Source of the DNA: Desulfotomaculum sp.
Lineage (GTDB): Bacteria > Bacillota > Desulfotomaculia > Desulfotomaculales > Desulfohalotomaculaceae
Reading direction: 5' to 3'
Length of the DNA stretch: 32,102 nt
Assembly: GCA_021129825.1 (NCBI GenBank)
Contig: JAJOKO010000002.1
Span: 1-32,102, forward strand
The notes under the pieces are model-generated. The model was not told the DNA's origin. It did no database searches and was given only the letters and a program-made list of their open reading frames with translations. Positions within the stretch are counted from its first letter, which is position 1, and each line of letters begins with the position of its first letter. The position numbers and the translations under genes are program-made. Positions 55 to 32,022 of this stretch are shown here, piece by piece.

Positions 55-266
55 AAGTGCGTGTTCGAAAAGTATGTTTGTGGTAAAAACCCCCCTCCCC
101 GCACCCTTCCCTTCGGGTGGGTACCCGCCCCTCCCACGAGGGGAGGGGAAATCAAGTCTCCTCCCCCTGGATGGGGGAGGGTAGGGTGGGGGTGTGTTTT
201 AAGGTCAATTGGGTTAATATGCAAATTTTAAATGTGATAAATGATACCCTTTTCGAACATGCACTT
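55..266. repeat. Family 2 palindromic/MITE-like element with terminal inverted repeats
   Basis: Left end GTGCGTGTTCGAAAAG (57-72), right end CTTTTCGAACATGCAC (249-264), reverse complements with one mismatch and extendable by AA/TT. GC-rich hairpins lie inside. The ORF 15..224 is a translation of this repeat. Confidence 0.85.
173..192 (+). other. Predicted G-quadruplex motif
   Basis: GGGGG-A-GGG-TA-GGG-T-GGGGG, four G-runs with loops of 1, 2 and 1 nt. Confidence 0.7.
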
Positions 267-4305: not shown

Positions 4306-4414
4306 TCCTATGAATTGATAGGGACATTCCCGGCGTTCAACTCTACAATAATTTTATCTTTAAACATAATTTTCTTAAAATTGAACGCTGGGTGTGTCCC
4401 TTATCCTATGAATT
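4306..4414 (-). repeat. Family 1 palindromic element, copy A, with 11-bp flanking direct repeat
   Basis: TCCTATGAATT at 4306-4316 and 4404-4414. Inside is GATAGGGACATTCC...GGTGTGTCCC with inner stem CGGCGTTCAA/TTGAACGCTG. Confidence 0.9.
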
Positions 4415-6374: not shown

Positions 6375-6544
6375 ATCCTCTTACTGTGCGTGTTCGAAAA
6401 AGAGTACGATAGACCCAAGAAGTTCAAGGTGACTTGGTAATGGCGGGGTGAAACGTATAAATAATACGTAAGCGTCGCCATTACCAAGTCAACGCAGAAA
6501 TTCGCCGGGTATTTCGCACGGACTTTTCGAACATCCTCTTACTG
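6375..6544. repeat. Family 2 element flanked by 12-bp direct repeat
   Basis: ATCCTCTTACTG at 6375-6386 and 6533-6544. Ends TGTTCGAAAAA and CTTTTCGAACA. Internal 15-bp perfect stem 6431-6445/6476-6490. Confidence 0.88.
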
Positions 6545-18612: not shown

Positions 18613-21600
18613 TCTTTATCACATTCTTTTTCTCACCCAACTTATGCCAAATTTCTTGTTTATCAACCGGCTTTAAATTTCGATAATCACACCCTTCTAC
18701 CTGCACATCAAATTGACACACTGGTTGAAAAACACAATATTGGCAAGACTTAAAATCCTTTAACCGGTACGGTTTGATAGCTGTTTCCCCCGCCATAATA
18801 GCAGTACCCGCTTTAGCTAGTATTTTGCGAACATGTTGCCGCAATACCGTTATTTGCTCACCGGTACATACAGAAGAACTACTGTAAAAAAACCGGGCTT
18901 GATCCGTTTGCTGCTCACCAACAACACTTGTTCCCCCTGCTTTCAACAAATCACCACCCGCTTTGGTGAGCGCCACCGGCAGCAAAGGCGAATAACCACT
19001 TTTGGTTTCACTGTCCATTAACTGAAAAGCAACTAAATCTGCTAACACTAAACCTTTCATTTTAAATTCTTTCAGGATTGCTGATTCAATTTGTTTATCG
19101 GACAGCGGAGCAGTAATCTTTAACAACGGGTCTTGTAATTGAAAATAAAGCAACCCCGCCGGTACCACTTGTTTTTCATCTACCGGTACATTCAATAGTT
19201 TATCGGCATAATTTAAAATTACATCTAAATAAGCAACTAGCTGTAATTTCAAACCATAGTAAACTTCTAATAAACTTAAACCAGCTCGACCGGATTTATA
19301 ATCAATCACCCGTAAGTAGTATTTACCATCTTGAGCACAACCGTCAACTCGATCGATCCGACCGGCCAGTTCCATCACACCACCATCTTCCAAAGTGATT
19401 TTCAAGGCCGGCAACACCCTGCCCCGGGTACTCGCACCCGATTTAAACGCTACTTCTAATCCCACTGGTTTAAATTTACCCCGCCGGGCATGTTCTGCCA
19501 ACACCAACGCCGACCGTTGTACTATTTTTTTGAATTTTTTAGTTAAATAACGGTAGCGAGCTGAACTGAGCAATATTTCACTTTGTAATTGTGGCACTAA
19601 ACCAGCAACTACCTCACTGCTAATATCAATAATTTCTTTTTTAGCTATTTTATCCCAATCTAAATTACGTTCTTGTAAATTATGAGCAAATTGTTCTAAA
19701 GCAGCATGAAAAAACTGTCCTAAATCAGGGTAACTCAATTGATATATTTGACGCTCCTTTAAACGCAACCCGTAGGACATAAAATGGGCAAAGGGACACG
19801 CTTGAAATTTTTCTAAACGTGAAATGCTGGCTCGCAGGGGGTTGCCATACAAATTACCGGCTAGAGCAGGCTTGATCGCTATTACCCGGTTACTAAAAAA
19901 TAATCCTTCAATTACTAAACGTAACCTCTCCAACCACTGGCTATCATTAAGCAACCAGTTATAAACAACCCACCAAACCGGGTCTGTTTTTTGCCCTTCT
20001 TTAACATAGCGTAATTGTTGAGACAAATAAACTAAAGCCCGGCGCGGGTGCATGCTAAAATTTAAACTGGTATTATCACTTGCTGTTTTTATGACCGGTG
20101 CTTCTAAATCGGTATTTTTTACCCGCAGTTCAGGAAACATCTTTTTAATTCTTTCAATTACTGGTGACGGTCTCAAAGCCTTCCCTTCAGCATCTGCCAA
20201 AGGATAACTTAAATACAGCCGGTCACTGGCTCTAGTTAAGGCAGTATAAACTAAAAATTGCTCCTCGTGCAGTTTTTCAACAATACCGGGTGCCAACTCT
20301 ATCCCTTTAGTTTTTAAGTACTGCCGTTCCGTTTCATTTAATAACCCGCTATTCACCTGTTTAGCCGGTAAAACACCATCGCCCACACCAGGCACAAAAA
20401 CAACTTTCAAATTAGCATTTCTGGATCGCTCCAGCGAACCAATAATTACTTGATCTAAACCGGGTGGGATTAAACCTAGTTTCATGTTTTCAAAACCAGT
20501 ATCAATTATTTTTATAAACTCCACTAGATTTTGTGATTTTTGACTGCCAGTTTCTGACCCGGTATTATCGGGAATAGTTTCAGCTAATTGATCTAAAAGA
20601 TCAATTAGCTCCTGCCAAATTTGGTTATGCTGCTGTCCTATCTCCAGTTGCCCTTGACCGGTAGTTTCTTCCGCCCACCGGCTTATTTTCTCTGCTACCT
20701 GCAATTCTTCCAACAATTCATACACCGCCCGGACTAACTCCAAAGTACCGGTCGCTTTTTTGATTTTAGCACCAAAAGCCACCAATTCAGCCACCGCCCG
20801 CCGGCGCACTTCATTCAGTGCTTCGCTTGTTTTTTCGTTTGAAACCTTTAAATCACCCTTTACACTACCCTGCCAAGGCTTTTGATCGTACCACCGGCGT
20901 CCTCTAATGCCATAAGCCAAAACAAAATTTTCTAAAATATTAACCTCATCCCGGTTAACATTGACCAAATCTGTTTTTAGATAGCGAAAAATAGGTTCGT
21001 AGTGCCAACCACTCTGTACTGTTTCTAGCGCAGCCCGAATTAACTCTACTAACGGGTGATGCACTACTGCCCGCTTGCAATCCATGAAAAAAGGGATATC
21101 ATAATCCGCAAAAATAGTTTCTAATAACAAATCGTAGTTACCAAAATCTCTTAATAATACTGCTATATCCCGGTAACGAAAACCCTGACGGCAAAGGTTG
21201 CTAATTTCCAACGCCACTACTTCCACTTCAGCTCGGTGATTTTGGGTAGCGGTAATTTTTATATTTTCAACTTCTTCGTCAAAAGGTGCTACTCTTAAAT
21301 CAAAAAAACATTTTTCTAAATAGGCTATATCGGCAGTGTGCTGAAAGCGATAAGGCACCGGTTGCTGCAATAAATGCGCTCTTTTCACAATAATATTGTT
21401 AGCTACCGCTAATTTCTGAATTTTAAAGTAAGTATTTTGCGTTTTGTTAAAGTGATCAGATAAGTAAACAATATTTGTTAGTGTGTTTTCCGGTAGTTTA
21501 TCAGCAACTGAATTGATGGGGACATTCCGCCGGGTACCCACCCCGAAAGGGAAGGGTGTTGCGGTGTGTCCACGCCCAGAGGGCACCCGCTCTAAAGTAA

Positions 21601-22402
21601 GCGTAATATTAACCTGACGTGCTGTTTGGCAGAGAGCTACCAGTACTTGCAGTTCTTGCGGGGTAAACCCGTTAAAACCGTCCAGCCAAATTTCAGCATC
21701 TTGAACCAGTGGTGCTAACGGTAATTTTTCAGCCAGCAAATTTAAATAATCATCCGGATCGGTATATTTACCGGCCAAGTATGCTTCCAAATCTTGATAT
21801 ACCAGTTGCAAATCTTTGAGTTTGGCTGCCAGTAAATAACTGGTTGTTTCTACTGACCCGGTTTTGTTTTCATTTTCAGATTCAAGTAACCAGTTTAAAT
21901 CTGCCGCTTTAATTTGATGCATTTTTAATTCTGAAATAGCACCAGCCAAACTTGCCACAAAACCAAACTGTTCGCTAGCAACACTAAAGAATTTTAATTC
22001 CGCCCGGCGATTTTCTAAGAACCGCCGTAATAACATATACTTACCCAGTTCACCAATATGTATTCTAGCCCCACCACCCACTTGCTGCAATACCTGCCTA
22101 GCCAAGCGGCGAAAACTAAACACTTGCGCCCGCATAGTGCCGTCTAAATTGATGGGGACATTCCGCCGGGTACCCATCCCGAAAGGGAAGGGTGTTGCGG
22201 TGTGTCCCCTATCCTCTAAATCAACAGTAGTAGCTAGTGCTTTTTCATTTTGAAAAGTAGCCTGTTCCGGCACCAATAATATTAAATTATTACCTACTCC
22301 TGGCACTGGTTGTTGCTGTAATTTTTCCCTGATGCTGTTTAAGCAGTAGGTAGTTTTACCGCTGCCAGCCCGACCAATTATAAACCGCAAGGGCATCTGC
22401 AC
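18608..22402 (-). CDS. addB: ATP-dependent helicase/deoxyribonuclease subunit AddB
   Basis: FIIGRAGSGKTTYCL, VPEQATFQ, MRAQVFSFRRLA, C-terminal GRIDRVDG...YLRVIDYKSG nuclease and CQYCVFQPVCQF Fe-S cysteines. Confidence 0.93.
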   Translation of the reverse strand: MQMPLRFIIGRAGSGKTTYCLNSIREKLQQQPVPGVGNNLILLVPEQATFQNEKALATTVDLEDRGHTATPFPFGMGTRRNVPINLDGTMRAQVFSFRRLARQVLQQVGGGARIHIGELGKYMLLRRFLENRRAELKFFSVASEQFGFVASLAGAISELKMHQIKAADLNWLLESENENKTGSVETTSYLLAAKLKDLQLVYQDLEAYLAGKYTDPDDYLNLLAEKLPLAPLVQDAEIWLDGFNGFTPQELQVLVALCQTARQVNITLTLERVPSGRGHTATPFPFGVGTRRNVPINSVADKLPENTLTNIVYLSDHFNKTQNTYFKIQKLAVANNIIVKRAHLLQQPVPYRFQHTADIAYLEKCFFDLRVAPFDEEVENIKITATQNHRAEVEVVALEISNLCRQGFRYRDIAVLLRDFGNYDLLLETIFADYDIPFFMDCKRAVVHHPLVELIRAALETVQSGWHYEPIFRYLKTDLVNVNRDEVNILENFVLAYGIRGRRWYDQKPWQGSVKGDLKVSNEKTSEALNEVRRRAVAELVAFGAKIKKATGTLELVRAVYELLEELQVAEKISRWAEETTGQGQLEIGQQHNQIWQELIDLLDQLAETIPDNTGSETGSQKSQNLVEFIKIIDTGFENMKLGLIPPGLDQVIIGSLERSRNANLKVVFVPGVGDGVLPAKQVNSGLLNETERQYLKTKGIELAPGIVEKLHEEQFLVYTALTRASDRLYLSYPLADAEGKALRPSPVIERIKKMFPELRVKNTDLEAPVIKTASDNTSLNFSMHPRRALVYLSQQLRYVKEGQKTDPVWWVVYNWLLNDSQWLERLRLVIEGLFFSNRVIAIKPALAGNLYGNPLRASISRLEKFQACPFAHFMSYGLRLKERQIYQLSYPDLGQFFHAALEQFAHNLQERNLDWDKIAKKEIIDISSEVVAGLVPQLQSEILLSSARYRYLTKKFKKIVQRSALVLAEHARRGKFKPVGLEVAFKSGASTRGRVLPALKITLEDGGVMELAGRIDRVDGCAQDGKYYLRVIDYKSGRAGLSLLEVYYGLKLQLVAYLDVILNYADKLLNVPVDEKQVVPAGLLYFQLQDPLLKITAPLSDKQIESAILKEFKMKGLVLADLVAFQLMDSETKSGYSPLLPVALTKAGGDLLKAGGTSVVGEQQTDQARFFYSSSSVCTGEQITVLRQHVRKILAKAGTAIMAGETAIKPYRLKDFKSCQYCVFQPVCQFDVQVEGCDYRNLKPVDKQEIWHKLGEKKNVIKR
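21511..21573 (-). repeat. Family 1 palindromic element, copy B (inside addB)
   Basis: AATTGATGGGGACATTCCGCCGGGTACCCACCCCGAAAGGGAAGGGTGTTGCGGTGTGTCC; encodes GRGHTATPFPFGVGTRRNVPIN. Confidence 0.9.
22143..22221 (-). repeat. Family 1 palindromic element, copy C (inside addB)
   Basis: Nearly identical to copy B; TCTAAAT at 22143-22149 and 22215-22221; encodes DRGHTATPFPFGMGTRRNVPINL. Confidence 0.92.
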
Positions 22403-22439
22403 TCACATCCAATTACTTTAATAATTTCAAATATTAGAT

Positions 22440-22491
22440 TGATGGGGACATTCCACGATTTTGTGGTGTGTCCCCTATCCTCTTGATACCA
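22440..22491 (-). repeat. Family 1 palindromic element, copy D (Fic remnant/addB junction)
   Basis: TGATGGGGACATTCCACGATTTTGTGGTGTGTCCCCTATCC; inner stem CCAC/GTGG. Confidence 0.9.
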
Positions 22492-30408: not shown

Positions 30409-32022
30409 TTAATGCTTAAAATGCCTGATGCCGGTAAACACCATCGCTAGCCCGTTTTCATTGCAGGCAGCAATAGATTCTTCATCCCGCACTGAACCAC
30501 CCGGTTGAATAATTGCTTTGATGCCAGCTTTAACCGCTACATCCACATTATCCCGGAACGGAAAAAAAGCATCCGATGCCAGTACTGCTCCGGCTACTTT
30601 TTCGCCGGCTTGCTTTAACGCTAGCTCTACTGAATCAACCCGGTTCATCTGCCCGGCACCAACACCAATAAGTTGCTTGTTTTTAGTAACCACAATAGCA
30701 TTGGACTTAACGTGTTTTACAACAGTGCACGCAAAAATAAGTTCCTCCAGTGCTTGTTTATTCAGCTGTTTTTCCGTTACTGTCCATAGTTCTTTGGGAT
30801 TCAGTAACTGGCGATTATTTTCTTGGATTAACAAACCACCGTTAACGCTACGTACTTCCACTAAATTGAAGGGGACATTCCGCGTGTTCTCTTGCGCGGT
30901 GTGTCCCTTTTCCACTAGATTATTGGTTTGTAGTGATAAATCCCCGGTTTTCAACAAGCGTAAATTAGATTTTTGAGTTAAGATATTCAGTGCTTGCTCA
31001 TCAAAATCCGGGGCAACGATTGCTTCTAAAAAAATAGCGTTCATTTTCTGAGCAGTAGCCGCATCCACCGGACGATTACAAGCCACAATGCCGCCAAAAG
31101 CAGATACCGGGTCACCATCCAGTGCTTTTTGATAAGCTACCTTCAACTCACCGGCACTAGCACAGCCACAAGGATTATTATGCTTAACAATTACCACTGT
31201 TGGTTCAGTAAATTCACGCCCTAACTCTAAAGCCGCATTGGCATCCAAAATATTGTTATATGAAAGTTCTTTACCATGTAATTGCTGGGCATTAGCTATA
31301 CACGCCCCAGACACTGTTGTTTGCCGGTAAAAAGCAGCTTGCTGGTGCGGATTTTCACCATAACGCAAAGTTTGTACCCGTTGGGCTGTTACACTTAATT
31401 CTGCCGGGAATATTTCCCCAGCTGTTTCGGTAAAATAATTAGCAACCGCACTGTCATAAGCAGCCACATGCGCAAAAGCCTCGCCAGCCAGTGCTAGGCG
31501 CAATTTGTGAATTGATGGGGACATTCCATGAAATGGTGTGTCCCCTGTCCTATTAAGTTCAGTTAATACTTCCGGATATCTATTGGGATTAACAACTACC
31601 AACACGTTTTGATAGTTTTTAGCTGCTGCCCGTACCATCGCCGGTCCGCCAATATCAATGTTTTCAAGGACCACTGCCAGTGTGGTGCCGGGCTTGGCAA
31701 TAGTTTCTCTAAAAGGATATAAATTGACTACCACTAAATCAATAGGAGTGATCTTTAATTCTTTAAGTTGATTTAAGTGTGCTTCGCTACGCAGTGCCAG
31801 TATGCCGGCATGCACGTTAGGGTGCAGTGTTTTTACCCGACCGTCTAAGATTTCCGGAAAACCGGTTACCTCTGATATGTACGTCACCGGCACTGCTGCC
31901 TTTTGTAGTGTTTTGGCTGTGCCGCCGGTAGATATAATTTCGATGCCCATAGCAACCAAACCACGACCAAACTCTACTAAGCCTTCTTTATTGGATACGC
32001 TGATTAGAGCCCGTTTAAGCAT
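30409..32022 (-). CDS. purH: Bifunctional AICAR formyltransferase/IMP cyclohydrolase PurH
   Basis: RALISVSNKEGLVEFG, EVTGFPEILDGRVKTLHPNVHAGIL, LRYGENPHQQAAFY, VKHNNPCG, DAFFPFRDNVD. Confidence 0.97.
   Translation of the reverse strand: MLKRALISVSNKEGLVEFGRGLVAMGIEIISTGGTAKTLQKAAVPVTYISEVTGFPEILDGRVKTLHPNVHAGILALRSEAHLNQLKELKITPIDLVVVNLYPFRETIAKPGTTLAVVLENIDIGGPAMVRAAAKNYQNVLVVVNPNRYPEVLTELNRTGDTPFHGMSPSIHKLRLALAGEAFAHVAAYDSAVANYFTETAGEIFPAELSVTAQRVQTLRYGENPHQQAAFYRQTTVSGACIANAQQLHGKELSYNNILDANAALELGREFTEPTVVIVKHNNPCGCASAGELKVAYQKALDGDPVSAFGGIVACNRPVDAATAQKMNAIFLEAIVAPDFDEQALNILTQKSNLRLLKTGDLSLQTNNLVEKGHTAQENTRNVPFNLVEVRSVNGGLLIQENNRQLLNPKELWTVTEKQLNKQALEELIFACTVVKHVKSNAIVVTKNKQLIGVGAGQMNRVDSVELALKQAGEKVAGAVLASDAFFPFRDNVDVAVKAGIKAIIQPGGSVRDEESIAACNENGLAMVFTGIRHFKH
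30857..30921 (-). repeat. Family 1 palindromic element, copy E (inside purH) with 11-bp direct repeats
   Basis: TCCACTAAATT (30857-30867) and TCCACTAGATT (30911-30921) flank GAAGGGGACATTCCGCG...GCGCGGTGTGTCCC; encodes KGHTAQENTRNVPF. Confidence 0.93.
31512..31549 (-). repeat. Family 1 palindromic element, copy F (inside purH)
   Basis: GATGGGGACATTCCATGAAATGGTGTGTCCCC; encodes GDTPFHGMSPSI, a different frame from the other copies. Confidence 0.88.

Follow-up and report, generated by a model that had tools for sequence, protein, structure and literature searches.

A short GC-rich core shared by three differently ended families of small repeats in a Desulfotomaculum sp. genome

Small palindromic repeats are usually listed as separate families, and the window analysed here (the whole stretch of 32,102 nucleotides, contig 5, positions 1-32102, from a fragmented MAG of 1.58 Mb in 171 contigs) raises the question of how families with different ends come to share an internal cassette. 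The first-pass annotation had reported the same GC-rich core in family 2, at 102-128, and in two family-1 copies, B and C; this is confirmed at three sites of the window, the location in family 2 being right and its end one base too far, as the shared unit (CACCC...ACCCG) spans 102-127 (Table 1). Specifically, at up to one mismatch, CACCCTTCCCTT occurs in the window only at 102-113 (+), 21547-21558 (-) and 22183-22194 (-), that is, three matches against 0.23 expected, a count reached by none of 100 shuffles. Relative to the copy at 102-127, copies B and C contain an extra T plus an extra G or A, and the core boundaries are ambiguous by a few bases at each site. Genome-wide, the gapped pattern CACCCTTCCCTT(T)CGGG(N)TGGGTACCCG has 33 matches and its reversed-pattern control has none. 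The core reads CGGG, then TACCC-A-CCC-GAA-GGG-AA-GGGTG, an unpaired foot and an imperfect stem-loop; by itself it folds weakly (z about -1.2), and it is gene-less.

Table 1. Positions of the core, its host elements and related repeats in the window
Feature	Position	Strand	Details
Left target-site duplication TTAAA	52..56	+	right TTAAA copy at 265-269
Family-2 MITE, 208 bp, GC-rich interior, core at P1	57..264	+	terminal inverted repeats GTGCGTGTTCGAAAA / TTTTCGAACATGCAC; folding z = -5.9
Shared core CACCCTTCCCTTCGGGTGGGTACCCG, 26 nt	102..127	+	33 exact copies in genome; inside family-2 MITE
P1 hairpin CCCCTCCCACGAGGGGAGGGG, directly 3' of core	128..148	+	core-less copies here: CCCCTCCCC-TTAAT-CCCCTCCCACGAGG
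P2 hairpin CTCCCCC-TGGAT-GGGGGAG	161..179	+	second core junction just 3'
Family-1 copy, other interior hairpin GGCGTTCAA...TTGAACGCT, between two chemotaxis/flagellar genes	4309..4414	+	
Family-2 MITE, 153-bp palindromic type, without core	6386..6538	+	direct repeat TTACT
Family-1 hairpin with core, copy B, in frame in addB	21508..21571	-	outer right clamp decayed
Core copy in family 1 CACCCTTCCCTTTCGGGGTGGGTACCC	21532..21558	-	genome pattern search
Family-1 hairpin with core, copy C, in frame in addB	22144..22215	-	folding z = -5.4
Core copy in family 1 CACCCTTCCCTTTCGGGATGGGTACCC	22168..22194	-	genome pattern search
Family-1 copy without core, interior ACGATTTTGT, empty-state comparison	22435..22485	-	
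Family-1 copy without core, in frame in purH	30857..30914	-	
Family-1 copy without core, in frame in purH	31503..31557	-	
Family-3 terminal repeat GAATTCTCTCGGAAA at contig end	32048..32062	+	

The surroundings of all 33 copies were fetched, and 1.1 Mb of the genome was then read as stretches. Listing the termini around each copy, as the first-pass annotation had proposed, reveals recognised repeat ends beside every one of them; a ubiquitous repeat that lies mostly outside the clamps is therefore not what this genome contains, since at least one clamp end accompanies each of the 33 exact copies. The core is carried by three clamp families (1, 2 and 3), the third absent from the earlier annotation, which had also missed that family 2 has two core junctions, P1 and P2, and that the core turns up, if rarely, in other genomes. 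Fourteen of the 33 copies, including the one in the window, are located at P1 with family-2 ends, and 15 at P2: four with a family-2 left end, one with a family-2 right end only, seven with both family-3 ends, two with one family-3 end, and one with a family-3 left and a family-2-like right end. Of the remaining four, three reside in family 1, and the last belongs to an inverted double core.

Families 2 and 3 have two hallmarks of MITEs, terminal inverted repeats and target-site duplication. Family 2 has GTGCGTGTTCGAAAA ends and 5-bp target duplications, while family 3 has GAGTACTCTCGGAAA ends and direct repeats of 4-7 bp, mostly 6-7; 38 family-2 and 9 family-3 paired elements with direct repeats were found, the repeats reaching at least 5 bp in 37 of the 38 listed family-2 elements. 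Direct repeats also flank core carriers of both families; these hosts therefore either transposed with the core aboard or later gained the core while keeping their ends. Like other bacterial MITEs, e.g., the Correia element (PMC10969869), both families are short and gene-less; they differ in that an interior cassette is common to different termini and in that no autonomous partner was found in the 1.1 Mb examined, where no terminal inverted repeat pair with a target duplication exceeded 379 bp. At least three interiors exist in family 2: one measures 97 bp, another is a palindrome of 153 bp, and the third is GC-rich and able to hold the core. The 199-bp copies of this family represent the 153-bp type enclosing a family-1 element. 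At 325-339 of the window a family-2 terminal repeat, TGCGTGTTCGAAAAGG, stands alone, directly upstream of a small HD-domain-like ORF (328-879, +) and overlapping its listed start.

Family 1 is a hairpin with the ends GGGGACATTCC…GGTGTGTCCCC that is inserted in frame in genes. Its ends are constant (GATGGGGACATTCC / GGTGTGTCCCCTATCC) and its interior is variable: it may be a short loop, the core, or a hairpin of the type GGCACTCACC...GGTGAGTGCC or GGCACTCAATTCAG...CTGAATTGAGTGCC, and some copies combine these. Lengths in this genome are 37-135 bp. Copy C adds about 24 amino acids to the addB product that are absent from 9 relatives, and the residues coded by copy B are likewise absent from relatives; as both segments are missing in nine AddB homologues, they are real in-frame insertions. 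The genes addB and purH were named from their own sequence and from relatives. Beyond two copies each in addB, purH and uvrC, family 1 is read through in frame in addA and dnaE and also in genes for a calcium ATPase, a MazG/YabN protein, a dihydroorotate dehydrogenase subunit, and others. In-frame insertion in genes and absence from homologues are features of the Rickettsia palindromic elements, which measure about 150 bp (PMC10969869), and family 1 resembles these in kind, being palindromic and in frame in addA, addB, uvrC, dnaE, purH and others. Conversely, it belongs to another lineage, is shorter, and has an interior that is replaced by several interchangeable hairpins.

Core-less counterparts of the core-bearing elements exist in families 1 and 2. 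Empty junctions read CCCCTCCCC-TTAAT-CCCCTCCC at P1 and CCCCCACC-CTACC-CTCCCCC at P2, with five bases at either junction where filled copies have 27-28, a comparison that implies no direction. The P2 junction of the window MITE is empty, with GGTAG at 180-184, and other copies hold the core there. In family 1 the interior ACGATTTTGT alternates with the core, and the addA copy (L031) has 26 bases in place of five. Each of the family-2 linker types AAATCAAGT, GGATTGAAT and GACTAAAT occurs both with and without the core, indicating that the presence of the core is independent of the lineage of the element. Moreover, the core is itself a host: in place of its loop TTC, a family-2 element at 4714-4971 of L053 has the GGCACTCACC hairpin, and a family-1 copy (L084) and the P2 of a family-2 element (L079) have the GGCACTCAATTCAG hairpin. 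Both hairpins are also present directly in family 1, and L132 contains a core within another core. The core-less copies, the shared linkers and the nesting hairpins support the earlier suggestion of nested insertion or exchangeable cargo, and the repeats resemble nested, exchangeable modules more than fixed sequences. A single genome thus contains core-bearing elements alongside their empty counterparts, several levels of nesting, and in-frame copies in genes for repair and replication, and the movement and merging of gene-less hairpins becomes directly testable. A further repeat type, sharing GTGTCCAGT...GGGTAAAGACTAGCC, occurs inside some core-bearing elements (L023, L029, L034).

Outside this genome the core is rare, as judged from a search of 59 relatives, none of which has it, and from a scan of 85,462 species at one genome each, which returned two further records. 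In the first (L048), the core lies directly 5' of another hairpin, TTCCCCTAAAAGGGGAA, in the arrangement seen at P1 and P2. In the second (L049, an Armatimonadetes MAG), it lies inside the frame of an IS256-type transposase, which has seven codons more than plasmid homologues; these homologues, of about 55-58% identity, served to judge the empty site because the transposase has no second copy in its genome. No additional cores were seen in the two genomes with the extra-T form of the query, a form that missed the T-less copy of L049 itself. Similarly, a phylum-wide search with CCCTTNCGGG... is a weak negative, as it demanded the extra base and recovered only 3 places of the genome under study, while plasmid BLAST returned only short matches, none better than E ~0.1, which fell mainly in the P2 block and never spanned the whole core. 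Being at most single-copy in the other genomes found, the bare core gives no sign of active amplification there.

The explanation that we favour, with a probability of roughly 60%, is that of a miniature mobile hairpin: the core would lodge in other hairpins, increase in number through MITE transposition and pass from element to element by exchange. A gene-less cassette of about 26 nt would settle in a loop or linker of another palindromic element, displacing some 3-5 host nucleotides; after entering a family-2 or family-3 MITE, it would be multiplied passively with each transposition of the MITE, and exchange among elements that share the GC-rich P1/P2 blocks would spread it further, while its own loop would take in further hairpins in the same manner. 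We infer that the core moves as a unit, presumably with the involvement of an enzyme, and that events followed this order. Counting against this explanation are the weak fold of the isolated core, its low copy number in the other genomes, and the distance of the two RAYT-type genes from any core or clamp.

Recombination might achieve much of this with an immobile core, in that C-runs common to the P1, P2 and core blocks would let gene conversion or template switching swap these blocks between repeat families, with dispersal left to the MITEs. Families 2 and 3 hold the core at the identical P2 junction, for which recombination of the whole GC block is an equally good explanation, and elements with mixed ends exist, a family-3 left end being joined to a family-2-like right end in L009 and to a family-2-type P1 block in L014. 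The loop of the P2 hairpin is found in both orientations, TTGAT and ATCAA, in otherwise like elements, as hairpin inversion would give, which the opposite orientations suggest. Yeast mitochondrial GC clusters (e.g., GC42) provide a precedent, since their units merge, shuffle and recombine (PMC4478555). Nevertheless, family 1 and the IS256 gene of another phylum hold the core without any P1/P2 block, and we regard recombination acting alone as unlikely, if worth serious consideration. One such pair of P2 loop orientations, ATCAA and TTGAT, is provided by L137 (3546-3750) and L050 (15174-15378).

A bolder version of the mobile-hairpin explanation, which we hold to be doubtful, would invoke a dedicated activity that replaces a few unpaired loop or linker bases of hairpins with other hairpins, concentrically. 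If so, outer clamps and inner cassettes would recombine freely, and the products would be tolerated in frame in essential genes. It is, instead, quite improbable that the core is a selected signal (a terminator, a protein-binding site or an RNA hairpin) kept in its carrier repeats: its copies are almost invariant in sequence and GC-rich hairpins could serve as terminators, but Rfam has no family matching the window, copies occur within coding sequence and in either orientation, and many otherwise similar elements, as well as the 59 relatives, do without it. Least probable of all is that short repeats were misjoined into false combinations during assembly, a reading invited by the many family-2 and family-3 ends that lie no more than about 50-100 bp from a contig end and by odd copies (L027, L034, L029) that begin at contig ends, and largely refuted for the key copies by the matching direct repeats around core-bearing elements, the window copy included, by the continuous addA, addB and dihydroorotate dehydrogenase subunit frames around family-1 copies, and by the presence of the core in two other assemblies.

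REP and REPIN sequences (PMC3733652, PMC3116915) share with the core an unpaired foot followed by an imperfect hairpin, and copies in repair genes, REPs occurring within DNA-repair genes of several bacteria (PMC3733652). The REP foot is, however, defined as GTAG or CGTC (PMC3733652), whereas that of the core is CGGG, and REPs flank a RAYT gene, unlike the repeats described here. Two Y1 transposase (RAYT-type) genes are present in the genome, and neither locus has a core or a clamp nearby; the RAYT of this genome was accordingly rejected as a mover of family 1 or of the core. Across seven relatives, a family-1 copy lies within ~1.5 kb at 1 of 25 RAYT loci, about the density expectation, so that the association of RAYT genes with these repeats is not above chance. 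No enzyme was linked to the core.

A close parallel in behaviour is that of the yeast mitochondrial GC clusters, which are also short GC-rich palindromes in an AT-rich genome, with high copy number and recombinational exchange; here, too, units merge, nest and swap. The likeness is one of kind: AG or ACT repeats border the yeast clusters, whereas the elements of this genome lie on a bacterial chromosome and have a cargo common to MITEs with terminal inverted repeats and 5-bp or mostly 6-7-bp duplications. These repeats offer a bacterial parallel to the yeast system. In the open-access literature we found no description of one cassette common to such MITEs and to in-frame palindromes, and in open-access PMC no published account of the core sequence.

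Lastly, relatives of family 1 are abundant in some genomes of the same order, with 131 matches in G024 and 22 in G048, where they have other interiors and form tandem 64-bp arrays. Tandem arrays of family 1 with a period of ~43-64 bp were observed in L088 (G000:C109; 834-937), L115 (3657-3743) and L177 (G024; 272-592), and at 1003-1092 of L143 an ABC-F type ATPase gene contains two tandem copies in frame, so that EGTHRSNTRNVPIN is encoded twice.
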